From positions 3,945,723 through 4,009,722 of the forward strand of contig OY725496.1 in NCBI GenBank assembly GCA_963281255.1: DNA of 64,000 bases. Reading direction: 5' to 3'. This document shows, piece after piece, positions 15,790 through 49,034 of this stretch. The DNA comes from Aphrocallistes beatrix. Its lineage: Eukaryota > Porifera > Hexactinellida > Sceptrulophora > Aphrocallistidae. Position 1 is the stretch's first letter. The number at the start of each line of letters is the position of its first letter. The notes beneath the pieces are model-generated. The model searched no databases. It was not told the origin of the DNA and saw only the letters and a program-made list of their open reading frames with translations. Made by a program: the position numbers and the translations under genes.

Positions 15790-15830
15790 TCAATTAATAT
15801 TACCGCAAGCTCCCCCCCTCCACCCAGGCG
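15703..15830. mobile_element. MITE-like fragment at the truncated 7TM gene
   Basis: TACCGTCTATACTCGAATAG followed by a CACCGGGCTATTATT stretch resembles the TACCGTATT...CGAATAAGCGCC end of the element at 58878-59260. The opposite terminus is not identified. The sequence replaces the 3' end of the adjacent 7TM coding region. Confidence 0.4.
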
Positions 15831-16764
15831 ATCGAATTTGCAATAATGTTCCAATCGAGTCTGCTGTCAGAACAATTGGATTGTTGTGAGGAAGAAAGTT
15901 AAATGGGAAGTAGCATTTTGGATGAAATAGAATGCTAGTTAAGAATTCTTGAAATCTAAATAAATAAGTTGACACCACGATCAACAGGTAACCGAAACAT
16001 ATGATCCTCATGGTGTATTTGAAATACTTGTACTGCTGATATTCTTCTTTGTTGGATCCGAATTGTGCCAATCTTTCTCCTGCTCTCTGGAGTAGAGTGC
16101 GTCCAAATTGATTTGCACTTCTCAAAAAGATGCAAAAGTATATCAGCAGCGAAATAGGGAATATGATTCTGGTTATCAGAAAAAGATTAGGTATGGCCGA
16201 GGTTCCAATAATGATCAAACTTATGAACAAAGCGAGTATAAAAGGAGCCCAAATTTTCAATTTGTTTTGTGGATAGTTTGTTTTCTTAATTCTTCTAGTC
16301 AGATAACTCATCAAACTCACTCCCAGCATAACAACGAACAAATCTGCTACATTCTGAAAAGCTCCTAATACACTAGTAATAGTTGATTGTTTGAGACATA
16401 ATTCATTTGAAGTTAAATTATCGACACTACTAAAATTTGACGGCATTAACTCCAGGCTGTTATCTATTTTTGAAAAGTTTATATACGTAAGGTTATATAT
16501 TATGTCCATCACAACCCCATATACCTCTGTCAAGTTTATCAAGAGAAAATACACATACTTGTGTATCTCTGTTTCATAATGGTAGCACCATTGTTCATCG
16601 AGCACATTACCTGACTCCTCTTGTGTGGATAGGTTTTTCGCTGCCCCTCTTCGATACTTCTTAAACCGATAAATTCGACTGACACTAACTATAATCCAGT
16701 ATGAACTGGTTGCCAGGAATATGCTTAGCCAGACAATTTTTAACGCCTCAATGACATCAATCAT
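15790..16764 (-). pseudogene. Orphan seven-transmembrane protein, copy 2, 3'-truncated
   Basis: Clearly a paralogue of the 14092-15204 gene: it shares YHYETEIHK, LLINLTEVYGV, VADLFVVMLGVSLMSYLT and the whole TM5-loop-TM6 block. The match stops after residue ~305 (near PIVLTADSIGTLL). The last ~20 residues are Gly/Arg-rich and unrelated. TM7 and the cytoplasmic tail, about 65 residues, are missing. The break coincides with repeat-like DNA carrying a G-run at 15805-15830 and a MITE-like end near 15703. The rest of the frame is intact with no internal stop, so it could still make a six-TM protein. It may be a recent pseudogene or a gene with a new end. Confidence 0.65.
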
Positions 16765-23300: not shown

Positions 23301-26300
23301 ATGTCGGAACCTTCAGTACCAGCCTTCAATCTCTGATATTTCTCTTCCAAATCTTGGATACAAAGTATAGTTTTCCTTAAAATATAATATGCGCTGTATT
23401 ACAATTATATTATTCATCTAATTCTCTATTTTGCCATTCTAAATGCACAATGCTTAAGCAGTTTGTGTGTCTATCCAGGCCTCAGATTGCAGACCGATAT
23501 TACCAAGCACTCTATAGCAAAATATTTGATAGAGAGATGGTATCAAGCAACAAACATGTAAGTGTTTGGAAGTATAATTTTAAATTTTATTAATTTTTTA
23601 TTGAAATATCTAACTCCTCAGACTATTTTTCTCAATTTGATATTCCGGACATGCAAAGCAGATCCAATGCTGGATAGGAACAAGGTATGTCTCCGTTAAA
23701 CAACCTCATTGCTCTGTTTCTACAATAAATCTATTCTACAGGGTTTTGTTAAGAGACTTTTGCAATCTACTGTATTCCACCGATCCAACTATTCCTGTGG
23801 AATTCTCTATCTTCTTGAAAAAGTAATTTACAATTACTTTCTTCAATTTCACCGATGGCTTTTACTACATGGGCTATCTCCTTAGTTATTTCAGAGTAAC
23901 ATTTCTCTCTCTTCACTCATCACTGAGTCTATAGCTGGAGACTCAGAAGAGGAGACATTTAGAGATCTGGACTCGTCTGGAGAAGAAAATCAGGAATGTG
24001 AACCTCCAAAAGTTCCTCGTTATGAGTTACGTACTCGGAACCCTCTCTACTGTAGAGCAGGCTACTCCTGTCTTTGGGAAATCTCCCTAGTATGTTCCCT
24101 GTAGTATCAACTCACGTTGTGATGCTAGTTGCATTTATATGTACCTTTCAGAATTTATCTTCTTTTAGCTTGAAAAACATTTTCATCCATCTGTAAGATC
24201 TTTCGCTACACAGCTTCGTTTGGTAAGCTTAGAATTATCCAATAGCGAATAGTTTGTTGGTATAACGCGTATTTTCAATTTTTCTAGTGCATCAAATCAG
24301 ATTATGAAGGTGATCCTCTCGAGAGTTTCAGTGTTATCAGGTGACAAATCAGATGGATGCATTATTTCCGCCGTGTTTCAACTCATTTGAATAATTTCTT
24401 TAGATTCCTTGATAAATTTGTTTACAAAACCCCGAAGAAAAGACCACAAGGTAAAGCCTATTATTTACGAAAAAAATGTTTGAACATAAAACATGAATAA
24501 AAAACAGGCACGAAAAAATATGAAAACCACGCACAAAATGTATTATCATCTATAATTCCCTTTTAGGTCAAGGTATCTCTCTAATGCAGGCAAGTTTCAA
24601 ATGTTCTATGATAATTCCCATAATTCCCATTAAAATCGTAGTGAAATTTTAAGCTTTTTATATATACACGTGGATCAGGATTAGCTCTCCAAATCATTCG
24701 AACTTGATCACACTTAATTACCATATTACATTGATGAGGATATTTGATTAGTGACGTAGTATATATCCCTCTTATTGCGTCTATCCATGGAGACACATCG
24801 AACTCCTCAGCAGAATAACTTAATGATGTAACTTTATGAGTTCTTTTTTTAGAAATCAAAATCCAAGGAAAGAGCCAACAAAATGCCAGGTATCTTTTGT
24901 TCTTAAAATTTAATCCTTAAATTAGTTAGATCTAATTTAGAAATTCCTAAAAATATAACTGATGATCTCATACATCACATTTTCATCTTGCTATCCTACA
25001 CCATATCAATAGATCCCTTCTCCTCTCTCTCTTTCTCTCTAGTCAACTCCGCTGCTTTCTTGAGTCTGAAGCCTGACAGCGTCCCTGAAGACGAGCTATT
25101 CTACTACCAGTATGTACAGCCGTGTTATTAATAGCGATGCATTGAGTTTACTTGGCTCCGCACATGAGCGCATGTATTTAATGAAGCTGTTTCTTCGCTG
25201 TGTACTCACTTCATTTGAACTTTCCAGTTGACTACATTAATGGGGCCTTTAATTATTTTCAACCAAATTGCCAGGTATTTCAAGCTGCAAGAGCACAAGC
25301 TTAACAAGAAGAAGAAGCAGGACAGCACTGGTTAGTGACTTTGTTTAGAAGATTATTAGCAGAATCAACTTACGTACATGTGCATATTTAGACAAGTTGC
25401 TGCCTTCAGATGGCGAGGATGTTGAAGAGTCTAAAGAATCGGCTCTGAATTTTATGAGGTACTTATTTTATCAGTATTTATTCTTAGCTATTAGTGGCGT
25501 GTAATGTCTTGGATTAATTGATTTCTCTTCTTAGTTTGGTTCATTTTGAGGGCTACCCCAATCAATTTTTCTTTTCCTTTTTAAATTTTGAACTAGTAAA
25601 TTGTTTGCAAGCAAGAGAAACGTATTTGCGTATCTACCCCTTGATCACCTACCACCACCGAATCTAATAGCAGCATAGTAATTATATAATAATGCTACTT
25701 GTAGTTTGTGCCCAGGAATCCCTTTGACTGAGAATATTTGCCAATTATTTAGATTAATTACTTAATTTAGCGATATCAAACAGAAGATTAAGAAGAATAA
25801 GCGGAATAAAAGAGAGTATGAAGGGAGCTCTTCCAGCGATTCAGATCTAGAATTCAGTAAGTTTTAGTAATTTATTAGAGTTCAGTGTATACATACTATT
25901 GACTCAATACAGTGGTGTTCGCTTAATAGCAAGTCGATTTTAGCTCGAAATTTGCTTGCTAATAAGCGAACTTGCTATAATAGAGAAACGAAATTAACAT
26001 AATAAGCACGCTTGGGACCTGAAAATAACTTGCTAATAGACGAATATTGCTATTAGAGCAATTGCTAATAAGCAAACACCACTGTATATTTGTTTTGGAC
26101 GATGTCGTAAAAGTAGACGTAGTATTCCTTCTGCTATTTCCGAAAATACTATCAGCAATCAACTGAAATCATTTGAAATCATAGTATGTTACGAATTCTA
26201 AGCTGAGAAGCGAAATTGTGCAAATATGTATAACATCCATACCTGCATATCAACCCTTGATAGAAGATATTAATTTCCATTATAATTCCATTTAAGATTT

Positions 26301-28058: not shown

Positions 28059-31013
28059 ATGCTTCAAAAAGTGAAGGACCAATTCAACAGTGTGGATGCA
28101 AGCTCTCTGAAGAAATCTATTTCTGGCTACCTAGGTGATTCTCCCTCCAATCAACTGCAAGGAGACATGTCAGATGTAGACTCGGTCTCCAGCGAGAAAA
28201 CTCCATCCATCACGGAGCTAAGCGAGACGTCGGACCCAGATCTCTCCAGAGGGAAGCCTCGCTCTCGTCGATCAGGAGCAGAGAAGGAATATGAATCTCG
28301 CCTGCTGGAACAAGTAAAGCTGAAGAACAGGTTGGCCGATATGCTGGAGCAACAGCAAGACAAATCTAAAGCGGAGAATAGAGAGATTCGACGGAGTTTC
28401 GAATTGAAACTTCAAGAGCAACACGCTAACCTGAGTGAAGATATTAACAAGAAGGGGAAACTCCTAGAGAAATCTAAGGTAGTGATACAGGAGTTGGACA
28501 AGAATGTACAGAAGCTCCAGCGAGGTAATGAAATGGAGTCAGTACAGCATGCATTGGAATTGGAGAAAAAGGATAGAGAAGCTAATGAGCTAAGAGCAAA
28601 GATAAAAGAAATTGAAAACGAGCGCCAACAGATCAGAACGCAGCTGGAGACAACTGTCACACAACACGAGTCTATGAGTAACCAAATGAAAGCTATGAAA
28701 GAGGCTAATGCTAACCAATCGAGCGAGCTAACGAGACTGCATGACGTCATGCAGAACTCTACAGATAAAGGTGGTGAGTCAGAGAACAGGTGGCAACAGC
28801 TGCTGGAGCAAATAACACGAGAGAGAGATGAGAGTAAACAGGAGTGCGTTTCTCTGCAAAAGCGAGAGGAAGAGGCTAGGAAAGAATTGTCTGAGAGAAG
28901 CAGGAGCTTGGAGAGTACCGTCCAGTCCCTGGAGACAGAACTGAGTAAGTGTGGGACAACAATAGGAAAGTTAGAAGCAGAGCGGGATAGAATCAGTCAT
29001 GAATTGAATAGTCAAGTATCTGCATTGAATCGGGAGGTAAGTGAGGGGAAGGAAAGGCTAAAGAAGAGAGAGGAAGAGAGCAGAGAAGAAATATCTGTCG
29101 TGGAGAAGACTGTGGTAGAGATAAAGCAGTTGCTGCAAGTTAAGGAGCAGGAAATCGTCCGAATGAGTGGTGAGGGAGAGAGACAGAAGTTACAAATATC
29201 TAAGTTACAAAAGGACAATGAGAGAAACCTGCAGGAATTTAAATCCAGTCTACAGGAAGAGAAAGTAGATGGAGATGAGTTGCGAACACTCATCGAGCAA
29301 GTCAAGCTAGAAAAGGCACAGGAGTTGGAGTCTCTCTACTCTACTCACGATGAAGAAAAGCAGGTTTTGATCGACCAGAACTCCGATCTTAAGAAACAGC
29401 TGACTGATACTACGGATCAGCTGGCGGGTGTCACATCGAGTAGCATGTCCACGCAGCAGAAACACAGGACTGAGATGGTGAAGCTGGGGAAGGAAAAGGC
29501 GGGCTTAGAGGAACAGGTGCTGAAAGCTAAGTCTGAGAGGGCCGAACTACAACAGAAGTGTCTGGAGATGGAAAAGGCACTAAAGCAGCACAAGACAGGG
29601 GAAGAGGGGTACAAGACTCAGTTTGAGGAGGTGAGAGTCCGCTACGATAACCTCCAGGGGCAGTACAGCCGGGACGTAGAGCGTCTAGAGATGAGAGTCG
29701 AGCTGCTGAACGAACAGCTGACTGTGTGTAAGAGGGACGGTCAGGATAGAGAAGTTGACCTCCAGACTCAGCTGACTCTATCCAGGCAGCAGAAGGAGCA
29801 GGAGCGGTTGGAGATGAGCCAGTCTGCAGAAGGGCTGAACAACCAGATCACGATTCTAGACCAGACGGTAGTCAGCATTTCTGACAGGTGCGAACAGCTG
29901 ACTACTCAGCTGGAGGAGGAGAAGGGGATGAGGAAGCAGGTAGAGGACAGTCTGCAGGATGAGATCGAACGGCTGGGATTTCAGCTCCGTGAAAGAGAAG
30001 AGAAAGTAAGCCAGGCCTCCTCAGCTAAAGATGATGTCCAGAGGCAGCTAGACACTGCGAAACAGATGATAGCGGATAAGAACGACAATCTCAAAATAGC
30101 TCTGCAAGAGAAGAGCACACTATACGCAGGGCGAGAAGAGCTGGAACGAAAACTGAAAGAAAGTGTTGCTCAGTGCGAAGATCTCTCTCGACTTAGAGAC
30201 CAGATGAACAGGGAAATGGGCACATTCCAATCTCAACTTCAATCTTTACTGTCTAGTCTACTCGAGGGGACTGAGGGGTTGAGGGGACAGATGTCTGACA
30301 GGATTAGCGGAGTTAGCTTGAAGTTGAGTGGATTAGAAGGTGTGGTGGAGAAACTAGGACATGTAAGGGAGGATAATGGGTCTCTTACAAATGAGTTAAT
30401 GCGACTACAAGCTGAGAACAGCGACCACCTCGAAAAATTGCAGAAGAAATCTCTTGAAATCAAACAACTCCAGCAGCGACAGACCGACTTGAAGAAAGTT
30501 ATCTCTCGAGAACTGAAAATGCAGTCAAGTCAGTCTGAGCTGAGTTTTCAAGAAGAGCAGTTGGTTGCTTCTACAGAAGACAACAGCGCTACTGACAGCA
30601 CCCCTCTCCTACCGACTGACTATGTACCACATAACAGTGGTATTATGCAACTCAATGATAACGAGCAGCTGAATAGTGCAATTCTTCCCTTCCAACCAGG
30701 TCTCAGGTCAAACTCAATGCTAACCCTCCCCTCCCTATCTCTATCCCGTAATCCAGAGGACCTGATTGACCTCACTCTCTCTTCACCCATTGGGGAGATC
30801 AACTTCCAGTACCTCCGTAACATCATGCTACAGTACATGTGTTCCAATCCTTCAGAGGCTAAGCAGCTGCACAAGGCGCTATTCACTTTGTTGAACGCCA
30901 GCTCAAGGGAGCAGGCAGCAGTCAATCAGTTCTGGAACTATCGGGAATCCTGGTTCGGGTTCAAAGTACCTCCTAAATTCAGAAGCATAGTCGCCCAGTC
31001 CAATGAGTTATGA
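28059..31013 (+). CDS. GRIP-domain golgin (coiled-coil trans-Golgi tether)
   Basis: The product has 984 residues. A short polar N-terminus includes SLKKSISGYLGD and a Ser/Asp-rich stretch. About 800 residues of Glu/Lys/Gln/Leu coiled coil follow (roughly 85-860), then a linker and a C-terminal GRIP domain at about 912-950. The domain carries INFQYLRNIMLQYMCS, which has the aromatic residue that in GRIP domains contacts the small GTPase ARL1. ARL1-GRIP binding places such proteins at the trans-Golgi, where they capture vesicles. Human GRIP golgins are golgin-97, golgin-245, GCC88 and GCC185. The N-terminus and length match none of them clearly, so no symbol is given. The gene is intronless, despite its length. 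The ATG at 28059 follows a strong palindrome. Confidence 0.88.
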   Translation: MLQKVKDQFNSVDASSLKKSISGYLGDSPSNQLQGDMSDVDSVSSEKTPSITELSETSDPDLSRGKPRSRRSGAEKEYESRLLEQVKLKNRLADMLEQQQDKSKAENREIRRSFELKLQEQHANLSEDINKKGKLLEKSKVVIQELDKNVQKLQRGNEMESVQHALELEKKDREANELRAKIKEIENERQQIRTQLETTVTQHESMSNQMKAMKEANANQSSELTRLHDVMQNSTDKGGESENRWQQLLEQITRERDESKQECVSLQKREEEARKELSERSRSLESTVQSLETELSKCGTTIGKLEAERDRISHELNSQVSALNREVSEGKERLKKREEESREEISVVEKTVVEIKQLLQVKEQEIVRMSGEGERQKLQISKLQKDNERNLQEFKSSLQEEKVDGDELRTLIEQVKLEKAQELESLYSTHDEEKQVLIDQNSDLKKQLTDTTDQLAGVTSSSMSTQQKHRTEMVKLGKEKAGLEEQVLKAKSERAELQQKCLEMEKALKQHKTGEEGYKTQFEEVRVRYDNLQGQYSRDVERLEMRVELLNEQLTVCKRDGQDREVDLQTQLTLSRQQKEQERLEMSQSAEGLNNQITILDQTVVSISDRCEQLTTQLEEEKGMRKQVEDSLQDEIERLGFQLREREEKVSQASSAKDDVQRQLDTAKQMIADKNDNLKIALQEKSTLYAGREELERKLKESVAQCEDLSRLRDQMNREMGTFQSQLQSLLSSLLEGTEGLRGQMSDRISGVSLKLSGLEGVVEKLGHVREDNGSLTNELMRLQAENSDHLEKLQKKSLEIKQLQQRQTDLKKVISRELKMQSSQSELSFQEEQLVASTEDNSATDSTPLLPTDYVPHNSGIMQLNDNEQLNSAILPFQPGLRSNSMLTLPSLSLSRNPEDLIDLTLSSPIGEINFQYLRNIMLQYMCSNPSEAKQLHKALFTLLNASSREQAAVNQFWNYRESWFGFKVPPKFRSIVAQSNEL

Positions 31014-35133: not shown

Positions 35134-37494
35134 ATGGACTCATTGAAGAGAATCGTAGCTCCAGTTAGACACCTCCGTAGATACAATGATCCCTTCTGGA
35201 GATGGGTTGATCGGTTAGAAAAGGCGCGCTTGTGGTACACAACGATGAACCTCTATGGTGTACAGGAGCATAAAAATCTCCATTCAATTATCTCCCTATC
35301 TAAAATGGTAACAGTGCCAGCGAGAGTGAATATCTCGGAAGAGTTTCACGCACAATTTGCAGAATGGACAGAGGAGCTAGAAAGGATCCATCTGACCCCT
35401 GACACACTCAAGCTACACAATATCGATAACATGAACTTACTTGAATCCAGGCTGTATCACCTCAAGACAATGAGTTCTCGAACTGGTAAATTTTCAAGTT
35501 TTGATATTGAAGAATCTTTTAAGCTGAACGAAGATAAATTAAAAGAAACGGACGGGTCCAACATCGATAAAGAAGGCACCGATAGCCTCATTTCGATGCG
35601 AAAAACTGTATCCAACAAAAGGAATTCTATAATAATCGAGAAAAAATACTCTGCGGACTCCGTAGCAGGAATATTAGCTGCACCTACTAGAGCTCCTCCT
35701 CCTCCAACGGCTGTAAATCTGATCGAAGTTCCTGCTTCATTTTCCCGTATGCATTCGTCTGAGTGTGAAAGTATTTATAAAATACGAGAATTGGGGAGTT
35801 TCAACTTTGAAAAGGATTTAGTTTTCTCTTCTCCACTCACGCAAACAGAAACAGATCTCCAATTTCCGTACAGAGGAGATCCGTTTGAAGTGACCATGAG
35901 TGCTAGCAAGGAGCTGGTTATGGCCAAGCTGTCCCTCTACCCCGAGGCCTGGCTACTTAAGCATTTCTATGTCAGCATTTGGGAAATGTTTAATTTCGGT
36001 GAAGAGACAATCGGTAATTTCATAATCGCACCTAATTTCTTGAAAGACGAAGACGAGTTCCCTTCTCTTGACCTTTTTGTTTGGAGCGGAGAACCTGATG
36101 CGCCCACATTCTATGCATTTCCAATTGTCAGGAATCAAAATGGTTTTTCTGTGATTGAATCTGAGAACTCCTTCTCGTCCCTAGCATCCCTCGTAGCCCA
36201 CTACTCATTCAACTTAACAGAGGATCTGCCAGTCCTTTTGAAGCACCCTTACCTAACAACCTTAGTACCAACTTTCAGTCCCCCGCCTAACCTCACTCTT
36301 CAAGAGACCTACCTCATCCATGTATTGGAATGTACCACTGAAAACTGGCTGACACAAAGTGAAGTTAATTTGGAAACATTTAAGAATGCTTCACTCGGTG
36401 CATTCAAAGTACAAGAAAACTTGAACAAGGGTTTGGCTAAACTATTCGTAAACATAAGTAAAGGAGATGAGAAAGAGTTAAGATTGTACGAGATAAACGC
36501 CTATGATGATGGTCTCGGGTTGTCCCATAGCGAGATGCGCTTCCCTACGCTAGCATCTCTTATCTCTTACTATTGCTGCTGGGATGTAGACATACCTTGC
36601 CAGCTTAAGTATACGCACTCGTCACTGACAGAGAGTGAGACCACCCATCGGATGCTAGACATCAGTAACATGGCGGAGGAGGTATATATAGCTAGAGCGC
36701 TGACACTCACTCCCCAATCTTGGTACTGCCAAGGAGCGAATCCTGATGACGTCACTCTGAGGACTAAATTACTCGACCAACCGATTGGTAACTTTATAGT
36801 GACAGAATTTGGAAGTGTCTATACTTTGCTAGTTCGCAGTAGCACAGATAAAGAATGTCCCATTATCTCTTTTCAGATTGAAAAGAATGGCTCAAATTTC
36901 ACAATCCAAGGACTAAGCGACTTGTTTCCCTCAATTCCATTGCTAATGGGTTATCTCTGTTGCAATCGCAGTGGTTTGCTTGGATTTCTATTATCGATTC
37001 CAAGAGTAGTCAGTGAATCCCCTAATACGATTCTACATTCCAAAAACATATTTTGTATTGAGAGTACTGCGGAAGAATTCAATCGTAGCAACGTTGGAAG
37101 GAGATCAAATTGGTTGAACAAAATGCACAAAGAATGCTTTGCCAGTCTTCGCCCTGACGATAAATTGCAGCATTTTGCCTCTGCCCTCACTCATAACCCG
37201 AACACGTGGCGTTTCTCTGAAATCTCAGAAGCCACGAAATGGATTAAACAACTTGAATATCGTTCCTTTGTCGTCACTCCCTCGTCTTCAGGCCGCCAGC
37301 ATATACTGTTAGTACGTAGTAGGGAATTTGACCCAGCAGTGGTTGAACTGTTTACGATATACCAGTCAGATACAGGCACTTGTGGATTTGAGAAGGAAAA
37401 CATGACTTATTCCGGACTTGAAATGCTGTTAGCTCATAGTTGCTGTATCAAGGTTGATGAGTTGCCTTTTATTCTAAACTTCTCGCCTTATTAA
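35134..37494 (+). CDS. Protein with four SH2-like repeats lacking the FLVR arginine, copy 1
   Basis: Not a recognised family; the domain reading is mine. The 786-residue product starts with a helical region (about 1-130). A Ser/Lys-rich linker with the PTRAPPPPTA proline run follows. Then come four ~100-residue repeats, at about 262-372, 392-493, 519-620 and 680-784. Each begins L-x-x-x-P/T-x-x-W (YPEAW, TTENW, TPQSW, NPNTW). Each has a G/S-x-F-x-V strand and ends with an SH2-like helix-loop such as SLASLVAHYSFN..DLP..L or SLISYYCCW..DIPCQL. At the position of the SH2 FLVR arginine the four repeats read FIIA, FKVQ, FIVT and FVVT. Classical phosphotyrosine binding is therefore unlikely. It is intronless, with no signal peptide or TM segment, so probably cytosolic. 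A tandem twin lies at 38714-41068. Confidence 0.75.
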   Translation: MDSLKRIVAPVRHLRRYNDPFWRWVDRLEKARLWYTTMNLYGVQEHKNLHSIISLSKMVTVPARVNISEEFHAQFAEWTEELERIHLTPDTLKLHNIDNMNLLESRLYHLKTMSSRTGKFSSFDIEESFKLNEDKLKETDGSNIDKEGTDSLISMRKTVSNKRNSIIIEKKYSADSVAGILAAPTRAPPPPTAVNLIEVPASFSRMHSSECESIYKIRELGSFNFEKDLVFSSPLTQTETDLQFPYRGDPFEVTMSASKELVMAKLSLYPEAWLLKHFYVSIWEMFNFGEETIGNFIIAPNFLKDEDEFPSLDLFVWSGEPDAPTFYAFPIVRNQNGFSVIESENSFSSLASLVAHYSFNLTEDLPVLLKHPYLTTLVPTFSPPPNLTLQETYLIHVLECTTENWLTQSEVNLETFKNASLGAFKVQENLNKGLAKLFVNISKGDEKELRLYEINAYDDGLGLSHSEMRFPTLASLISYYCCWDVDIPCQLKYTHSSLTESETTHRMLDISNMAEEVYIARALTLTPQSWYCQGANPDDVTLRTKLLDQPIGNFIVTEFGSVYTLLVRSSTDKECPIISFQIEKNGSNFTIQGLSDLFPSIPLLMGYLCCNRSGLLGFLLSIPRVVSESPNTILHSKNIFCIESTAEEFNRSNVGRRSNWLNKMHKECFASLRPDDKLQHFASALTHNPNTWRFSEISEATKWIKQLEYRSFVVTPSSSGRQHILLVRSREFDPAVVELFTIYQSDTGTCGFEKENMTYSGLEMLLAHSCCIKVDELPFILNFSPY

Positions 37495-38187
37495 TTGGAT
37501 TTAATTTTACTTGCTCCTGTAAAGATCAATGTTTGTTGAATTTTGCTCTCTTATTATCCTGCATGCTAAATTGTTAATTATATGCTAACTTACTTGTGAT
37601 AGTGAATTGGGGGTTTTACATCAATTTTTTCGTGCAGCTCCTCAGCACTCAAAATTAACACTTGGAAAGCTCTAAAATAGGTATTTCCCAGCATATATAA
37701 ATATGGTGTGAAAGCACGTAGGCCAAGTACCACACAATGTGTATACATGTTACAGTAAGATAGTCAAATCTGTGATTACGCAAAATCTCTGACATTTAGG
37801 AAATCCATGTAATTTTTTCGAAATATCTAGGAATTCCGCAGAATTCCTAATCTAAAGACCTAGTAATTCCTTTGATACCCCAACTTTTATTCTAATTGTA
37901 AAGTGGTCTGTGTTCAAGTATTATAATGTATTGAAAAGGTGTGAAAATATTTTCCCATTGTTTGCAAAAGTATGAAAAATTTCGCCTAATTAGATATTCT
38001 AACTTAGTCGTAGACTCATAGTTTGGCCAATTTTCATAGTCTTATGACTTACCAGTTCTTTAATATTCGCACAAATAAACAAACAAATTCTAGCTTTTTA
38101 ATATGCAAGATATTGTACAGAAATCGAATTGCAGATAATATACAAACAAATACTAGTTAAACACTTGTACTGTTCCAATACAGTATA

Positions 38188-38352
38188 CAGTGGAATTTGC
38201 TTATTAGCAACTCCCTTATTAGCAATATCGCTCTATTAGCAACCAATCTTCAGGTCCCAGGTGAAGATTTTGTGTTAGTTCTGTTCCTTTATTAGCAACT
38301 TCGCGTATTAGCAACCATTTTATGAGCAGAACTCGAGTTGCGAATTCCACTG
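38188..38352. repeat. CAGT-ended MITE, family B (165 bp)
   Basis: Starts CAGTGGAATTTGCTTATTAG after TA and ends GAGTTGCGAATTCCACTG before TA. The right end lacks eight bases (CTAATAAG) relative to the left. TTATTAGCAAC recurs inside. It is a longer relative of 20278-20376. Confidence 0.85.
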
Positions 38353-38616
38353 TACGTACATTCTCTGCGTCCTAAAAACGGATAATTTGGGTAATACGTA
38401 TGTAGTTTGTACATCTCCAAACAATTTGTCGACTTACAATAGTGTATCTGTATGATGTAATTGTAGAAGCAATTCCTTTTCGTACCAGTGAATTACCAGT
38501 TCTGCTGCTCCAAATGACTACACCACCTGTTTGCAGACATAATCAATTTTATCTACGTTTACATAGTTGTTGCCATTTAGCACATGAAATTTCATTAGTA
38601 ATAATTATGGATTGAC

Positions 38617-38668
38617 TACATATACATGCCAATATATATATATACGTATATATTGGCATATATGTATA
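38617..38668. repeat. AT-rich palindrome upstream of SH2-like copy 2
   Basis: TACATGCCAATATATA on the left is mirrored with small differences by TATATATTGGCATATATGTA on the right. It lies 46 bp before the ATG of copy 2; no equivalent palindrome precedes copy 1. Confidence 0.65.
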
Positions 38669-38713
38669 CTCACTGTCAATTGATAAATATCAACTTTTAC
38701 AACGTATACTAAT

Positions 38714-41068
38714 ATGAGCGGCTCATTGAAGAGAATCGTAGCTCCACTTAGACACCTCCGTAGATACAATGATCCCTTCTGGAGATGGGTTGATCGGTTA
38801 GAAAAGGCGCGTGTGTGGTACACAACGATGAACCTCTATGGTGTACAGGAGCATAAAAATCTCCATTCAATTATCTCCCTATCTAAAAAGGTAACAGTGC
38901 CAGCGAGAGTGAATATCTCGGAAGAGTTTCACGCACAATTTGCAGAATGGACAGAGGAGCTAGAAAGGATCCATCTGACCCCTGACACACTCAAGCTACA
39001 CAATATCGATAACATGAACTTACTTGAATCCAGGCTGTATCACCTCAAGACAATGAGTTCTCGAACTGGTAAATTTTCAAGTTTTGATATTGAAGAATCT
39101 TTTAAGCTGAACGAAGATAAATTAAAAGAAACGGACGGGTCCAACATCGATAAAGAAAGCACCGATGGCCTCATTTCGATGCGAAAAAAAGCATCCAACA
39201 AAAGGAACTCTATAATAATCGAGAAAAAATACTCTGCGGACTCCGTAGCAGGAATATTAGCTGCACCTACTAGAGCTCCTCCTCCTCCAACGGCTGTAAA
39301 TCTGATCGAAGTTCCTGCTACATTTTCCCGTATGCATTCGTCTGAGTGTGAAAGTATTTATAAAATACGAGAATTGGGGAGTTTCAACTTTGAAAATGAT
39401 TTAGTTTTCTCTTCTCCACTCACGCAAACAGAAACAGATCTCCAATTTCCGTACAGAGGAGATCCGTTTGAAGTGACCATGAGCGCTAGCAAGGAGCTGG
39501 TTATGGCCAAGCTGTCCCTCTACCCCGAGGCCTGGCTACTTAAGCATTTCTATGTCAGCATTTGGGAAATGTTTAATTTCGGTGAAGAGACAATCGGTAA
39601 TTTCATAATCGCACCTAATTTCTTGAAAGACGAAGACGAGTTCCCTTCTCTTGACCTTTTTGTTTGGAGCGGAGAACCTGATGCGCCCACATTCTATGCA
39701 TTTCCAATTGTCAGGAATCAAAATGGTTTTTCTGTGATTGAATCTGAGAACTCCTTCTCGTCCCTAGCATCCCTCGTAGCCCACTACTCATTCAACTTAA
39801 CAGAGGATCTGCCAGTCCTTTTGAAGCACCCTTACCTAACAACCTTAGTACCAACTTTCAGTCCCCCGCCTAACCTCACTCTTCAAGAGACCTACCTCAT
39901 CCATGTATTGGAATGTACCACTGAAAACTGGCTGACACAAAGTGAAGTTAATTTGGAAACATTTAAGAATGCTTCACTCGGTGCATTCAAAGTACAAGAA
40001 AACTTGAACAAGGGTTTGGCTAAACTATTCGTAAACATAAGTAAAGGAGATGAGAAAGAGTTAAGATTGTACGAGATAAACGCCTATGATGATGGTCTCG
40101 GGTTGTCCCATAGCGAGATGCGCTTCCCTACGCTAGCATCTCTTATCTCTTACTATTGCTGCTGGGATGTAGACATACCTTGCCAGCTTAAGTATACGCA
40201 CTCGTCACTGACAGAGAGTGAGACCACCCATCGGATGCTAGACATCAGTAACATGGCGGAGGAGGTATATATAGCTAGAGCGCTGACACTCACTCCCCAA
40301 TCTTGGTACTGCCAAGAAGCGAATCCTGATGACGTCACTCTGAGGACTAAATTACTCGACCAACCAATTGGTAACTTTATAGTGACAGAATTTGGAAGCG
40401 TCTATACTTTGCTAGTTCGCAGTAGCACAGATAAGGAATGTCCCATTATCTCTTTTCAGATTGAAAAGAATGGCTCAAATTTCACAATCCAAGGACTAAG
40501 CAACTTGTTTCCCTCAATTCCATTGCTAATGGGTTATCTCTGTTGCAATCCCAGTGGTTTGCTTGCGTTTTTATTGTCGATTCCAAGAGTAGCCAGTGAT
40601 TCCCATAGTAAGATTATACGTTCCAAAAGCAGTTTTTGTACGTCGGAAGAATTCCGTCGTAGCAGTGTTGGAAGGAGATCAAATTGGTTGAGCAAAAAAC
40701 ACAAAGAATGTTCTACCAGTTTTCGCCCTGATGACAAATTGCAGCATTTTGTCTCTGCCCTCACTCGTAACCCGAACACGTGGCGCTTCTCCGAAATCTC
40801 AAGAGCCATGAAACAGGTTAAACAACTTGAATATCGTTCCTTTGTCGTCACTCCATCGTCTTCATTCCGCGAGCATATGCTGTTAGTACGTACTAAGGAA
40901 TTTGACCCAGCAGTGATTGAACTGTTTACGATATACCAGTCAGAAACAGGCACTTGTGGATTTAAAGAAGAAAACTTGGCTTATTTCGGACTCGAAATGC
41001 TGTTAGCTCATAGTTGCTGTATCAAGGTTGATGAATTACCTTTCATTCTAAACTTTCCCCTTAATTGA
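38714..41068 (+). CDS. Protein with four SH2-like repeats lacking the FLVR arginine, copy 2
   Basis: Twin of the 35134-37494 gene, 784 residues, same orientation and also intronless. The first ~620 residues differ at only about fifteen positions: for example MSGSLKR for MDSLKR, ARVWY for ARLWY and SKKVT for SKMVT. Repeats 1-3 are almost unchanged. From about 40545 the two genes diverge sharply. The linker before repeat 4 differs by many substitutions and a few lost codons (RSKSSFCTSEEF against HSKNIFCIESTAEEF), and repeat 4 differs at about a fifth of its positions. The same FIIA, FKVQ, FIVT and FVVT occupy the FLVR strands. Function unknown. The open frame of both copies argues that both are used. 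Confidence 0.75.
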   Translation: MSGSLKRIVAPLRHLRRYNDPFWRWVDRLEKARVWYTTMNLYGVQEHKNLHSIISLSKKVTVPARVNISEEFHAQFAEWTEELERIHLTPDTLKLHNIDNMNLLESRLYHLKTMSSRTGKFSSFDIEESFKLNEDKLKETDGSNIDKESTDGLISMRKKASNKRNSIIIEKKYSADSVAGILAAPTRAPPPPTAVNLIEVPATFSRMHSSECESIYKIRELGSFNFENDLVFSSPLTQTETDLQFPYRGDPFEVTMSASKELVMAKLSLYPEAWLLKHFYVSIWEMFNFGEETIGNFIIAPNFLKDEDEFPSLDLFVWSGEPDAPTFYAFPIVRNQNGFSVIESENSFSSLASLVAHYSFNLTEDLPVLLKHPYLTTLVPTFSPPPNLTLQETYLIHVLECTTENWLTQSEVNLETFKNASLGAFKVQENLNKGLAKLFVNISKGDEKELRLYEINAYDDGLGLSHSEMRFPTLASLISYYCCWDVDIPCQLKYTHSSLTESETTHRMLDISNMAEEVYIARALTLTPQSWYCQEANPDDVTLRTKLLDQPIGNFIVTEFGSVYTLLVRSSTDKECPIISFQIEKNGSNFTIQGLSNLFPSIPLLMGYLCCNPSGLLAFLLSIPRVASDSHSKIIRSKSSFCTSEEFRRSSVGRRSNWLSKKHKECSTSFRPDDKLQHFVSALTRNPNTWRFSEISRAMKQVKQLEYRSFVVTPSSSFREHMLLVRTKEFDPAVIELFTIYQSETGTCGFKEENLAYFGLEMLLAHSCCIKVDELPFILNFPLN

Positions 41069-42720: not shown

Positions 42721-45700
42721 ATGCAACTCAAGTTTACCATAAACCCACACCAGCCTCCAATCCTGTCTCTGATCACAGCAGAGCTGGTACAGAATGGAAA
42801 CTTCAGCGTGTCAGTGGAAGAAGGGAAAGCCACCATCCTGACCACTGAGTCAGGTGCTAAACTCACCTCCAGCTACTCTATTGCGCGCTATCTGGCGCGT
42901 GTTTCCCGCACGCGTAGTCTATATGGCGCCTCCCCACTCTCATCGACAGAAGTGGACCATTGGCTGGAGTACAGCCAACTCCAACTCAAACACGCTTCTG
43001 AGAGCAGCTTCTCCTACCTTGAGTCCATCCTCAACATGAGGCAACACCTGGTGGGAGAACAGCTGACTCTGGCAGACGTGGCAGTGTACATAGCCGTGAA
43101 GTCGCTGTACTCGGACCTGTCCGGGTACCCGAGGCTCAGTCAGTGGCTGCAGAAACTGGAGAGCTCTCCCCCCTTCCGATCAGTGCAGCGATATTTCAGC
43201 GGGAAACCTGAGAAAAAGGCGCGCACGGCAGACGTAGGAAAGTTCGTACAGCTCCCCGGCGCGGAAGAGGGGAAGGTGGTGGTACGGTTCCCACCGGAAG
43301 CGAGCGGGTACCTGCACGTAGGACACGCCAAAGCAGCTCTGCTTAACCAGCACTACCAGCAGACGTTCAAGGGGAGACTCGTGATGCGGTTTGACGATAC
43401 AAACCCCGCTAAAGAGGAGGAGCACTTTGAACAGGCCATCCTCTCGGACCTGCAGCTGATGGGAGTGAAAGCGGACAAGTACTCGCACACCTCGGATTAC
43501 TTTGACCATATTATCCAGCTGGGGGAACAGCTGATCAGACAGGGGGACGCGTTCGCCGATGACACATGCGCCGAGACTCAGAAAGAGGAGCGGCTACAAA
43601 TGAAGAACTCTCGGAGGCGGGACAGCAGTCTGGAGCAGAATCTGAGTTGGTGGAGAGAGATGCTGGCTGGGAGTGAGCAGGGAAAGAAGTGCTGTGTCAG
43701 AGCCAAGATGGACATGCAGTCGATGAACGGAGCCATGCGCGACCCGACAATATTCCGCTGCAAGTCCGAGTCCCACGTCCGCACCGGCACCAAGTACAAG
43801 GCCTACCCCACCTACGACTTCGCCTGTCCCATCGTGGACCACCTGGAGGGCGTAACCCACGCGCTGCGCACCACGGAGTACCACGACAGGGACGACCAGT
43901 ACTACTGGTTCACAGAGAAACTAGGCATCCGCACCGTGTCCCCCTCAGACCCCACCGTCCACTTCCCACACCTCTACGAGTACAGTCGCCTCGCGCTCCA
44001 GCACACCCTGCTCTCCAAGCGGAAGCTGGCCTGGTTCGTGGACCAGGGACGGGTGGACGGATGGGACGATCCGAGGATGCCGACGGTCCGCGGGGTGCTC
44101 CGCCGCGGTCTGACGGTGGAGGGACTGAAGCAGTTCATCATCGCTCAGGGCTCTTCCAAGTCCAACGTGCACATGGAGTGGGACAAGATATGGGCGTTCA
44201 ACAGGAAGATCCTGGACCCTATCGTCCCCAGGCTCACCGCCCTCAGCAAGGAGGGCGTCGTGAAGGTACTCGTTGAGAATGCAGAGAAGAAGGAAGTGCA
44301 AGTGCCTAGGCACCCTAAGGACAAGTCAGTGGGCATGAAGCCGGTCTGGTTGGGACAGGATATTCTGCTGGAACGAGCTGACGCCGCACTCCTGACAGAA
44401 GGGAGCCGCGTCGTCCTGATTAACTGGGGCGTAGCCGAGGTGACGGGTGTAGAGAGGTCGGGGGGAGGAGTTGCCTCTCTGAGGGTGCAGCTGCATCCAG
44501 AAGACACCAACTACAAAGGAAAGCCCGCGCTCACCTGGCTGGCTGAGGTGGAGGAGGCCCCCTGTGTGCCCGCCATCCTCGTTAGCTTCGATTACCTCAT
44601 CACCAAGCCGACCCTTGAGAACGAGGAGGATTTTAAAGATTTCCTGAACGAGAAGACGCGATTCGAAGAGGAGGCCATTGGCGATCCGAACCTATCCGAA
44701 CTGAAGCAGGGGGAAATAATCCAACTGCAGAGGAAGGGGTTCTACATCTGCGACCAGCCGCACCAGTTGGACACACACACGGGAAAGTGGAGTCCGTGTG
44801 TCCTCTTCTCCGTCCCCAGCGGACACACGGGGACAGATTCAGATGCAGCACCTGTCGAGAAAGCTAAAGAGGCGAAGAGCAAGAAGGTAAGTCCACTGCT
44901 CCCAGTGAGAAGAGAGGCTGGTACTGATTAGTCTCTTATGTAGCAAGCAGCGCAAACAGCTCCTGCTGCCGAGTCAGGCAAGAAGGCCAGCAAGCCGTCT
45001 CAAGAACCTAAGAAGACGGAATCGAAAGGTAAGTTCCCTTCCTCGCTCTCGTAGCTCTGCACTCAATTCATCTCTCCACTGAATAGTTCCCGCCAGTAAG
45101 AAAGTGACCAAGCTCGGGATCGAGGTGGGGAAGGAAGAGAGTTTCAGTGACTGGTATGTGGAAGTTATCAAGAAGGCGGAAATGATTGAGTACTATGACG
45201 TCAGCGGCTGTTACATCCTGCGTCCCTGGGCGTACACCATCTGGGAGAGGATCAAAGCATTCTTTGATGGAGAAATTAAGAAGTTGGGAGTAGAGAATGT
45301 TTACTTCCCAATGTTTGTGTCAAAAGCCGCACTAGAGACAGAGAAATCACACATAGAGGATTTCGCACCTGAAGTTGCCTGGGTGACACGGTCTGGCACC
45401 TCCGAGCTAGAAGTCCCGATCGCTATCCGTCCCACCTCCGAGACGGCGATGTACCCCGCCTACGCCCGCTGGATCCAATCGCACCGTGACCTCCCGCTCA
45501 AACTGAACCAGTGGAACAACGTGGTGCGCTGGGAGTTCAAAAAACCGCAGCCGTTCCTGAGAACGAGGGAGTTCCTCTGGCAGGAGGGACACACCGCCTT
45601 CGCCACCAAGGAGGAAGCTGCGGAAGAGGTGAGTCTAATAGCAAGTCTAAATAATTCATAATTCCTCTTTTTTGCGGATTCGTTTGGACAGAAGATGTTT

Positions 45701-46975
45701 GCAAGTCGCACAGCGCAAGTTCACTAGTGTTAATTATTGGTATGAGATCAGAACTTAGTGGAGCCATACAAAAGACTCTAACATGCCACAAAAATCAGCT
45801 TCTGTGCCTGGCAGTTTCTTCAGTCAATTCGTTACAGAGATAAATCTAGCTCATAAATATTCGGATTCGGGTGACTCGAGTCATTACTTGGGTCGTAATT
45901 GCTTATTCTATGACACAAAATTTACCTAGCTATCATTGTACGATTCTTTCTCTCCAGCTGACTTGAATATTGTAAGCATTCTACTAGATGTGTCTGTGTG
46001 TAGGTGCTAACTATATTAGAGCTGTACCGGCGCGTGTACGAGGACCTGTTGGCCATCCCAGTCATCCTAGGCACCAAGACGGAGAAAGAGAAGTTTGCAG
46101 GAGGAGACTACACCACCACTGCAGAGGCGTTCGTGTCTGCGAGTGGCAGAGGTATTCAGGGAGCCACTTCACACCACCTGGGACAGAATTTCGCACGCAT
46201 GTTTGACATCGGATTCCAGGACCCAATTGATCCCAAAATCCGTTCCTTGGTCTACCAGAACTCCTGGGGCCTCACGACTCGGACCATCGGGGTCCTGATC
46301 ATGATCCACGGGGATAGCAAGGGGCTGGTGCTGCCACCTGAGGTGGCAGATGTCCAGGTGGTCGTGATCCCGTGTGGCATGAGCAGTGATAAGAGCCAAG
46401 AGCTGAATACATACTGCGAGCAGTTTGTAGAGGTGTTGAAGGGGGCGGGAGTGAGGGGTCGGGCGGACCTGAGAGGACACTACAGTCCCGGGTGGAAGTA
46501 CAACCACTGGGAGATGAAGGGGGTGCCTATTCGAGTGGACATCGGACCCGCAGAGATGGGAAGTAAGAAGTTTGTGACGGTCTCCCGTCTGAGTGGAGAG
46601 AAGTTGGAACATAGCCTGGAGACAGCTGGCGAGACCGTACGTCTGATGCTGAGTGAGATCCAGGAGCAGATGTTCACACGTGCTCGGACCCAGCTGACTT
46701 CTCACGTGAAGGTGATACAGGACTGGGACGAGTTCCTGCCCCTCCTGGACAAGAAGAACCTCGTCATGTCGCCCTTCTGCTTGGAGACGCCCTGTGAAGA
46801 CCGGATAAAGGCGGACACCAGCAGCGGAGAGGTCGAACCGGGTGCCCCAGCAATGGGCGCCAAATCCCTCTGCATTCCATTCGACCAGCCTGGCGACGCC
46901 ACTATCCTGAACTGCATCCATCCGAAGTGCGGGAAAAAGGCGAAGTCCTACACTCTCTTTGGCAGGAGCTATTAG
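42721..46975 (+). CDS. EPRS1: Bifunctional glutamate/proline-tRNA ligase without WHEP domains, 4 exons
   Basis: This fused enzyme charges tRNA-Glu and tRNA-Pro in the cytosol. Exons: 42721-44886, 44944-45028, 45087-45628, 46004-46975; 3765 nt, 1254 residues (human 1512). Residues 1-150 form a GST-like domain. The class I GluRS core has [13 protein letters not shown] (HIGH-type) and LSKRKL (KMSKS-type), then a beta-barrel anticodon-binding part. The class II ProRS starts near [15 protein letters not shown], with motif 2 around [16 protein letters not shown] and motif 3 in [19 protein letters not shown]; it ends FGRSY. The linker between the halves is only about 70 residues of Lys/Ala/Glu/Ser and encodes no WHEP helix-turn-helix. 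The two linker introns are 57 and 58 bp, too short to hide one. Human EPRS1 has three WHEP repeats. Start: first ATG, matching the GST-like fold. Confidence 0.94.
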
Positions 46976-47153
46976 TCTTCAACGTTTAGAATTATTGGCA
47001 ATGTCAACTGTCATTTAGGTTTATTTTCTTGATTAGAGATATTAGATTGAATTGAATTGTTGTGTTATAATCTTTTTAAAATTATACAATGGCATATTTA
47101 TTAATTCTGATTATATTCAGCATCATACAGCACATAGAGATCTACACGAATCG

Positions 47154-49034
47154 ATGACTCAGTACAACTTCAAGCAACTCCCGATCGTCCCTAATGCTAA
47201 GGACTTCATAGACATTGTCCTCTCCAAGACACACCGGAAGACACCGACAGTTGTCCACAGACACTTCAAGATATCCCGCATCCGCCACTTCTACATGCGA
47301 AAGGTCAAGTACACTCAGCAGAACTACCACGACAAGTTGCAGCAGATCATAGACGAGTTTCCGAAGCTGGACGCAGTGCACCCTTTCTACGCCGACCTCA
47401 TGAACGTGCTGTACGACCGCGACCACTACAAGATCGCGCTGGGCCAACTCAACAAGGCGAAGCACCTGATAGACAATCTGGGCAGGGACTACAGCCGTCT
47501 GCTCAAGTATGCAGATTCTCTGTACAGGTGTAAGCAGCTGAAGATCGCCGGACTGGGTCGTATGTGCACTCTGATGAAGCGGCAAGGGAAGAGTCTGGAG
47601 TATTTGGAACAGGTGCGGCAACACCTGTCACGTCTGCCATCCATTGACCCCAACACCCGTACCATAATAATCTCAGGTTTCCCTAACGTGGGGAAGAGCT
47701 CCTTCATCAACAAGGTGACGCGAGCAGACGTAGATGTCCAACCGTACGCCTTCACCACCAAGTCCCTCTTCGTGGGACACATGGACTACGAGTACTTGAG
47801 GTGGCAGGTTATCGACACCCCGGGGCTCCTGGATCAGCCGCTGGAGCAGCGCTCCACCATAGAGATGCAGGCCATCACGGCGCTGGTGCACCTGCGGTCA
47901 GGGGTGCTGTACATGATGGACGTGTCGGAACAGTGCGGACGTACGCTAGAGCAACAGGTGCAGCTGTTCAGGAATATCCAGCCCGTGTTCAAAGGGAAAC
48001 CGCTCATCGTCTGTCTGAACAAGGTGGACGTGATACGGCCTGAGGCGCTGCCATCTGAGAAGTTGTCCCTGCTGGAGGGTCTGAAGCAGGAGGGAGTGCG
48101 GGTGGTGTTGATGAGCACGCTGACAGATGAGGGGGTGATGGAGGTGAGGCAGGAGATATGCGATCAGCTGTTAGCTGAGCGGGTGGACTACAAGCTCCAG
48201 GGGAAGAGAGCGGGCGACGTGATGAACAGACTATATATAGCCATGCCGCAGAAGCGGGACAACAAAGAGCGCCCGCCCTGCATCCCCCAGGCCGTACTGG
48301 AGAGGAGGGAACGTCAGAAGAACGGGGAGGTGGAGGTACGTCCCAAGAAGAAGTTGCTGAAAGAGGTGGAGCAGGAACTGCTGGAGGAATATTCGTGCGA
48401 CCTGAGGCAGCACTGGGTGCTAGAGAACGATGAGGAGAAGTACGACTACATTCCTGAGCTGTTGAATGGTCGCAACGTGTACGATTTCGTGGATCCAGAC
48501 ATCCTGGAGAAGATGCAGCTCCTGGAGAGAGAAGAGGGACTCAGGGAACAGTCCGGGTTCTACCACTCTGATTCTGACATGGAGGATGAAACCAGCAGAG
48601 AGAACCATGTCCTAGCTGAGAAGATCCGCGAGAAGAGGAGTATCTTGATACAACAGCGACATGTGAGGATGACTAGTAACAGGTCGAGACTGTCAGATTC
48701 CGTCATGCGGAGAGCGAGATCCAAGAGCGTGCGTAGGAGCAAGACGCCTGTCTCCCAGGGGGCGGAGGCCATGGACACCGGAGAGACCACGAAGAGGGCT
48801 CGGTCTCTCTCCCTCCACAATGCGAGATCCAGATCCCGCTCTGTGCCAAGAGACGAGGAAGGTGTCATGAACCCTGTCGTGAAGAAGTCGGCTAAGAAGC
48901 TGGCTAGAAGGAGCATGAGGGCGATTACAAAACGCATTCATGGGTCCGGAGAAGCGGACAGGAGGATAGTCGTGAAGAGGCCCAAGCATCTGCTAGCCGG
49001 GAAGAGTAAGGTCGGGAAATCTTGGAGACGATAG
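47154..49034 (+). CDS. GTPBP4: Nucleolar GTP-binding protein 1 (NOG1)
   Basis: NOG1 is an Obg-family GTPase that joins nucleolar pre-60S particles and is needed for their maturation. The 626-residue product begins MTQYNFKQLPIVPNAKDFID as in the family. The G-domain motifs are G1 GFPNVGKSS, G3 DTPG, G4 NKVD; the switch string ADVDVQPYAFTTKSLFVGH is diagnostic. Upstream lies the conserved RIRHFYMRKVKYTQQNYHDK region. The C-terminal third is charged, with Arg/Ser-rich and Lys-rich patches, and ends KPKHLLAGKSKVGKSWRR, matching the family ending. Human GTPBP4 is 634 residues. The frame is open for 34 more codons upstream, but the ATG at 47154 matches the family start. Intronless. Confidence 0.95.
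   Translation: MTQYNFKQLPIVPNAKDFIDIVLSKTHRKTPTVVHRHFKISRIRHFYMRKVKYTQQNYHDKLQQIIDEFPKLDAVHPFYADLMNVLYDRDHYKIALGQLNKAKHLIDNLGRDYSRLLKYADSLYRCKQLKIAGLGRMCTLMKRQGKSLEYLEQVRQHLSRLPSIDPNTRTIIISGFPNVGKSSFINKVTRADVDVQPYAFTTKSLFVGHMDYEYLRWQVIDTPGLLDQPLEQRSTIEMQAITALVHLRSGVLYMMDVSEQCGRTLEQQVQLFRNIQPVFKGKPLIVCLNKVDVIRPEALPSEKLSLLEGLKQEGVRVVLMSTLTDEGVMEVRQEICDQLLAERVDYKLQGKRAGDVMNRLYIAMPQKRDNKERPPCIPQAVLERRERQKNGEVEVRPKKKLLKEVEQELLEEYSCDLRQHWVLENDEEKYDYIPELLNGRNVYDFVDPDILEKMQLLEREEGLREQSGFYHSDSDMEDETSRENHVLAEKIREKRSILIQQRHVRMTSNRSRLSDSVMRRARSKSVRRSKTPVSQGAEAMDTGETTKRARSLSLHNARSRSRSVPRDEEGVMNPVVKKSAKKLARRSMRAITKRIHGSGEADRRIVVKRPKHLLAGKSKVGKSWRR

Follow-up and report, generated by a model that had tools for sequence, protein, structure and literature searches.

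The FLVR arginine (betaB5) of an SH2 domain normally clamps the phosphate of phosphotyrosine. Within a stretch of 64,000 nucleotides of contig OY725496.1 of the hexactinellid sponge Aphrocallistes beatrix (the window), two neighbouring genes encode proteins with four C-terminal repeats that look like SH2 domains without this arginine. The locus raises the question of whether these repeats are SH2 domains at all and, if so, what an array that does not read phosphotyrosine could be doing.

A tandem gene pair with four repeats per protein

The first gene product (P0001) is encoded by an open reading frame of 786 aa at 35134-37494 (+) and the second (P0002) by one of 784 aa at 38714-41068 (+), each open from ATG to stop. 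A preliminary description of the locus had proposed a pair of ~785-residue proteins with four C-terminal repeats apiece, and this was borne out by the reading frames and by repeat mapping, which gave repeats of ~110 aa. The two copies are 93% identical as proteins (781 aligned columns) and 96% identical as DNA (2353 aligned bases), and are laid out as follows.

35134..37494 (+): gene copy 1 (P0001), intact predicted reading frame, no intron seen (from DNA alone)
35134..35910 (+): copy 1, N-terminal 259 aa, without a recognised domain
35911..36261 (+): SH2-like repeat R1 of copy 1, residues 260-376, FIIA replaces FLVR
36298..36627 (+): SH2-like repeat R2 of copy 1, residues 389-498, FKVQ at the FLVR strand
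36673..37008 (+): SH2-like repeat R3 of copy 1, residues 514-625, FIVT at the FLVR strand
37153..37482 (+): SH2-like repeat R4 of copy 1, residues 674-783, FVVT at the FLVR strand
38714..41068 (+): gene copy 2 (P0002), intact predicted reading frame
38714..39493 (+): N-terminal region of copy 2, aligned with copy 1
39494..39844 (+): SH2-like repeat R1 of copy 2, protein the same as R1 of copy 1
39881..40210 (+): SH2-like repeat R2 of copy 2, protein the same as R2 of copy 1
40256..40591 (+): SH2-like repeat R3 of copy 2, placed by repeat comparison
40727..41056 (+): SH2-like repeat R4 of copy 2, the diverged repeat
35902..36733 (+): tract of 832 bases identical in both copies, spanning R1, R2 and the beginning of R3; probable gene-conversion tract

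The only Pfam match to the N-terminal region of copy 1 was CLCA, below the cut-off (E = 0.13), and a genome search with this region at E ≤ 10 found the region itself and copy 2 and nothing else. Full-length P0001, used as a query against the whole genome at E ≤ 0.001, also returned only itself and copy 2.

A distant paralog and the extent of the family

A third gene was identified by genome search on another contig (C17). Its 702-aa product is 23-27% identical, contains four SH2-like repeats (C1-C4) and is collinear with residues 338-606 of P0001 (E = 4e-8). Each P0001 repeat matched the HMM of the other three with E values of 2e-10 to 2.3e-7 against 2001 targets, a level reached by none of 2000 shuffles; for R4, left out in turn, the value was E = 2.3e-7, and again none of 2000 shuffles did as well. 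When the paralog repeats were added, all eight repeats passed the leave-one-out HMM test (0 of 2000 shuffles for each). The L-x-x-x-P/T-x-x-W pattern pointed out in the preliminary description recurred in four of four repeats (LSLYPEAW, LECTTENW, LTLTPQSW and LTHNPNTW), and three residues, W17, F41 and L91 in the numbering of the first sequence, were invariant in nine aligned repeats; we read these as core positions of the repeats. Pairwise comparison of R4 with C1-C4 showed little similarity (Z of -0.2 to 3.0).

A tree was built from the eight repeats and 15 other SH2 domains of the genome (14 of 26 seed domains and the SH2 domain of P0006, described below), with R4 of copy 2 left out. The eight family repeats grouped apart from the other SH2 domains, with a support of only 50. 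An AU test on the one-by-one pairing of R1-R4 with C1-C4 rejected none of four topologies (p of 0.37 to 0.59). Genome queries with R2, R3 and C1 singly found no further member, a weak test in that all three missed the known paralog. C1 alone gave a match on contig C7 at E = 0.56; a match on contig C8 (E = 0.7) was dropped as a member, its frame looking like an exonuclease by sequence reading. PF21990 had two sub-threshold matches in the genome, both outside the four-repeat family, and a pattern scan of bacterial/archaeal and viral contigs found no close relative. By sequence, the tandem pair and the distant paralog are predicted to make up one family of arginine-less tandem SH2 proteins. The earlier suggestion of a lineage-specific family fits the three genes in their own genome and the absence of any from the bacterial/archaeal and viral contigs scanned, on the scale of one animal genome.

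Joint profiles relate the repeats to SH2 domains

The SH2 fold is a sheet between two helices. A profile of six repeat rows (A1), compared with PDB sequences, gave TXK as its best match (E = 2.3e-6), and the best 60 of its 102 matches at E ≤ 10 were all SH2 proteins. Adding the third paralog gave a nine-row profile (A3), for which the best match was p85 (E = 1e-10) and the best 60 of 255 matches at E ≤ 1 were again all SH2 proteins; the best PDB alignments of the repeat profiles spanned profile positions 13-110 of 114. A profile of R3 and R4 together had the TXK SH2 domain as its first match (E = 1.9e-4). SH2 proteins made up 7 of its 15 PDB matches, and the other 8 were LOX-1, at E of 0.24 or worse.

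Single sequences gave a fainter signal. Pfam searches with P0001 returned SH2_1, which we take to be a JAK-type model, at E = 5e-4 and SH2 at E = 6e-3, both below cut-off and over approximately residues 322-358 only, which is part of R1; in bits, the two window proteins scored 17.2 and 17 for SH2 (cut-off 21) and 20.8 and 20.9 for SH2_1 (cut-off 27). Excised R1 was matched better by a zinc-finger model (E = 0.03) than by SH2_1 (E = 0.19) or SH2 (E = 0.14), and the other three repeats, R2 to R4, each excised, had no SH2 match in Pfam. Against the PDB, R1 alone had SLA2 as its best match (E = 1.0), with nothing over cut-off, and R4 alone matched no SH2 protein (best katanin, E = 0.19); in a whole-protein phmmer search, R2 was aligned to the SH2 domains of SLA2 (E = 0.096) and BLK (E = 0.72). 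The third paralog, searched as a whole protein, passed the Pfam SH2 threshold at its third repeat (27.6 versus a cut-off of 21 bits), whereas the same repeat excised scored 18.6 bits, below cut-off. With an SH2 model made from 26 seed domains of the same genome, R1, R2, R3, C1 and C3 scored well above 500 shuffles each. The margin was slight for R4 (6.0 bits versus 5.0 for the best shuffle) and C4 (4.8 versus 3.1), and R4 of copy 2 and C2 failed, being reached by 4 and 5 of 500 shuffles.

The SH2 assignment rests on the joint profiles; PDB searches with R1 or R4 alone and Pfam searches with single repeats gave nothing over cut-off. If the repeats had some other fold, SH2-like in a few strands, this would fit the sub-threshold matches of the window proteins, confined to part of R1, and the several single repeats with no SH2 match. 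We nevertheless consider such a fold very improbable, given the uniform SH2 identity of the 60 best matches to each profile, the length over which the top ones align, and the third paralog, which as a whole passes the Pfam SH2 cut-off. Of the profile search per repeat that the preliminary description had called for, the joint part matched SH2 and the single repeats stayed below the Pfam cut-off. By sequence, the repeats share ancestry with one another and with SH2 domains, and the proposal of four degenerate SH2 domains in a row is supported by the joint profiles together with the loss of the arginine.

The phosphate pocket

The strands at the FLVR position of P0001 read FIIA, FKVQ, FIVT and FVVT, as had been claimed. 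At betaB5 itself the residues in R1-R4 and C1-C4 were A, Q, T, T, T, W, T and F, with arginine in none of the eight. An alphaA2 arginine was present in one of eight repeats (C1; R4 is gapped there) and a betaD4 histidine in one of eight (C3), so that no repeat combined the two, and at none of the five positions examined did the family have a basic replacement in common. For comparison we aligned 66 rows from the fetched loci, drawn from 72 SH2 places that a genome search listed at E ≤ 10 with exon fragments included; six of these rows were family members and 60 were others, five of the latter being gapped at betaB5. Arginine occupied betaB5 in 53 of the 55 other rows (51 of 53 once two duplicates are removed), the exceptions being a Trp in a three-SH2 protein (locus L033) and a His in locus L049. 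In the same rows the alphaA2 arginine (42/53) and betaD4 histidine (42/55) were usual but not universal. The L049 domain (contig C16:476069-476293), which lies outside the family, reads FLIH, with histidine in place of the FLVR arginine.

Computed net charges were -10.9, -6.0, -2.2 and -3.7 for R1-R4 and -5.1, +0.1, +3.1 and -2.8 for C1-C4. Six of the eight repeats therefore fall between -2.2 and -10.9, with C2 and C3 as exceptions, and C3 has a pI of 9.1. The charges of the 26 seed SH2 domains of the genome ran from -12.9 to +6.2 (median +1.7), which overlaps the family: one seed stood at -12.9, aided by an Asp run at its cut end, and another at -3.8.

From these alignments the phosphate pocket is judged to be lost, the arginine in all eight repeats and, in most, the alphaA2 arginine and betaD4 histidine as well. 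C1 and C3 may keep some phosphate contact because of the alphaA2 arginine of the former and the betaD4 histidine of the latter. These two residues, and the high pI of C3, are what the repeats offer to the view that the domains still bind phosphorylated ligands through other residues or another face. That view has precedents in the part of a review drawn on here, in which the C-SH2 domains of p120RasGAP and Spt6 bind phosphorylated ligands by other residues or another face (PMC7530234). It is unlikely for this family, in which no basic replacement is shared at the five positions and six of eight repeats are net negative by 2 or more.

Probable gene conversion and divergence between the tandem copies

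Outside the genes, identity between the two copies per 100-column block was 44 upstream and 56 and 45 downstream, rising to 73 across the start codon. Within the genes, the 18 blocks from 35188 to 36987 contained 96 to 100 identities, and the blocks from 36988 to the gene end 75 to 92. One identical run (832 bases, 35902-36733) corresponds to residues 257-533. Silent differences followed the same course, with 2 in codons 1-250, 1 in 251-375, 0 in 376-500, 5 in 501-620 and 12 in 621-783. An assembly artefact as the source of the tandem copies was rejected given the diverged flanks, set against genes that are 96% identical, and selection at the protein level was rejected as an explanation of the identical tract because silent sites are identical too. 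In view of the identical tract and the matching pattern of silent differences, the tandem pair seems to stem from an old duplication, with gene conversion then making the copies more uniform.

Overall dN and dS between the copies (NG86) were 0.0325 and 0.0538, a dN/dS of ~0.6. In the last 163 codons dN was 0.121 and dS 0.183 (dN/dS 0.66), and in the first 250 codons dN exceeded dS (0.020 versus 0.015), with 10 amino-acid and 2 silent codon differences. Most changes between the copies fell in R4 and the linker before it. Constraint between the copies is weak, as seen in the overall dN/dS and in the excess of dN over the first 250 codons, and relaxed selection explains this as readily as new function does. 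The genes might accordingly be regarded as degenerating or weakly constrained leftovers of a phosphotyrosine adaptor with no specific function, a reading to which the concentration of changes in R4 and its linker and the vanished pocket residues also lend themselves. We consider it rather improbable: the frames remain open over 786, 784 and 702 codons, the third protein keeps four repeats at ~25% identity, and W17, F41 and L91 have not varied in nine aligned repeats. The retention of four domains in two lineages that are ~25% identical argues that the array is in use.

Genomic setting

A short dispersed repeat, perhaps the remnant of a small mobile element, occurs in both orientations at 20302-20381, 25905-26099 and 38174-38345 of the window, with one copy lying between the SH2 genes. 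A C2H2 array was noted as well, which, like the synthetase pieces described next and the 72 SH2 places, fits an animal. Downstream, 42721-46975 (+) holds a Glu-tRNA synthetase reading frame followed by two with Pro-tRNA synthetase domains, which presumably represent the fused animal enzyme in pieces; after these comes a reading frame with NOG1 GTPase domains (47052-49034). Two neighbouring similar reading frames on the minus strand, 14092-15204 and 15790-16764, are 84% identical as DNA (478 aligned bases), and neither had a Pfam match at E ≤ 0.01. A golgin-like protein with a GRIP domain (E = 2.6e-9) occupies one open frame at 28059-31013 (+). Elsewhere in the genome we observed long single open frames at L038:898-4716 on the minus strand (1273 aa) and L037:1-3306 (1102 aa of a 1327-aa frame), genes of a type that we take to be PLC-gamma-like and Spt6-like, the Spt6-like frame being on contig C14. 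Since large multi-domain genes and the golgin of the window lie in single long frames, the genome may be intron-poor.

Other SH2 genes of the sponge also stood out. Three equal-scoring SH2 places lie within 60 kb on contig C1 (L024, L025 and L026, at 10733410, 10765291 and 10790614). They have the same domain sequence where aligned and account for the two duplicate rows of the betaB5 count, the L024 copy adjoins a tyrosine-kinase-like domain, and the three perhaps reflect a recent local expansion. Two related proteins (BLASTP E = 3e-24), encoded at L033:1571-3565 on contig C11 and at L034:1819-3492 (minus strand) on contig C9, have three and two SH2 domains. By eye, the region before these domains may be caspase-like, without the usual catalytic residues. 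One of the two (P0008) matched Pfam Peptidase_C14 at E = 0.086 and caspase-3 in the PDB at E = 1.1, behind unrelated proteins, and the other (P0007) had no caspase match in the Pfam or PDB search.

Such unusual multi-SH2 proteins in the same genome, and homogenised copies with a changing R4, would fit a role of the window proteins as decoys or inhibitors competing with ordinary SH2 adaptors for contacts other than phosphotyrosine, perhaps in an immune or allorecognition pathway specific to the lineage. P0001 and P0002 have no Pfam death, NACHT, TIR or receptor domains and no link to a pathway, and we hold this explanation to be highly doubtful.

Comparison with known SH2 proteins

RIN2 and SH2D5 have one SH2 domain each, accompanied in RIN by VPS9 and RA domains and in SH2D5 by a PTB domain; VPS9, RA and PTB domains had no Pfam match in P0001 or P0002. 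Spt6 consists of a transcription-factor core followed by tandem SH2 domains, and its core domains also had no Pfam match in either protein. Tandem-SH2 signalling proteins such as SHP2, ZAP-70, p85, PLC-gamma and RasGAP combine two SH2 domains with catalytic or other modules. They resemble the window proteins in carrying more than one SH2 domain per chain, and p85 was the top PDB match of the nine-repeat profile among the matches listed, but the window proteins differ in having four arginine-less SH2 domains and no other recognised domain.

Among human SH2 proteins, the part of the review used here names only RIN2, TYK2 and SH2D5 as not conserved at the key arginine, which is replaced by His in RIN2, Trp in SH2D5 and His in TYK2 (PMC7530234). 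RIN2 and SH2D5 are to this extent like the family repeats, with an SH2 domain that has no FLVR arginine. JAK SH2 domains are described in the same part of the review as holding receptor tails in the usual groove with no need for phosphotyrosine (PMC7530234). The likeness of TYK2 and the JAKs to the window proteins, on that account, lies in an SH2 domain that does not need the FLVR arginine. The JAKs differ in that a single SH2 domain sits beside FERM and kinase domains, for which P0001 and P0002 gave no Pfam match at E ≤ 10. Spt6, as covered there, is similar in that its SH2 domains are packed in a row and the second is without a canonical phosphate site (PMC7530234), but it has two such domains and is a transcription elongation factor.

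Within the sponge genome, when the frames of loci L003-L052 were compared with profile A1, P0006 (locus L040, contig C11) scored best (E = 5e-8), and its place followed the C17 paralog in a genome search with the repeat region (E = 0.027). P0006 combines a PTB domain with a single SH2 domain and contains a long Pro-rich stretch. It differs from the family in that PTB domain and in its single SH2 domain with a normal arginine (FFIRES), which sits among ordinary SH2 domains in the tree. Descent of the four-SH2 family from a P0006-like PTB-SH2 adaptor is a lead only.

A literature search of titles and abstract openings, with SH2-evolution surveys incompletely covered, found no protein with four SH2 domains that are all without the arginine. 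Single arginine-less SH2 domains and tandem SH2 pairs are already known; an arginine-less array of four in a row, as predicted here, is not among the cases found.

A proposed phosphotyrosine-independent scaffold

The explanation that best covers the observations as a whole, and which we consider probable, is a family of arginine-less four-SH2 proteins that acts as a phosphotyrosine-independent scaffold, with a gene pair that was duplicated and then subjected to gene conversion. The proteins would consist of an N-terminal region with no recognised domain and four SH2 domains in a row, would be intracellular, and would not read phosphotyrosine. The four SH2 folds may instead offer their grooves or faces as an array for peptides or proteins, and the array would act as a scaffold for constitutive partners, comparable in principle with the SH2 domains of the JAK family. 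Duplication of the gene would have given the tandem pair, in which conversion would keep R1, R2 and the start of R3 alike while R4 and the linker preceding it diverge. The most likely function of the family, on this analysis, is that of a constitutive scaffold independent of phosphotyrosine.

In evolutionary terms, we lean slightly towards a history in which the phosphotyrosine pocket was lost before or during the expansion from one SH2 domain to four, leaving a scaffold that is built purely on the SH2 fold and works independently of tyrosine phosphorylation. In this history the animal gene family is an old one, its paralogs having drifted to ~25% identity, and the tandem copies are being homogenised as the last domain diversifies. 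The SH2 domain is the textbook reader of phosphotyrosine. If the proposal is true, the family is a case of this fold being turned wholesale into an array that needs no phosphate, and its eight domains would form a natural set for asking what the SH2 fold binds without phosphate.
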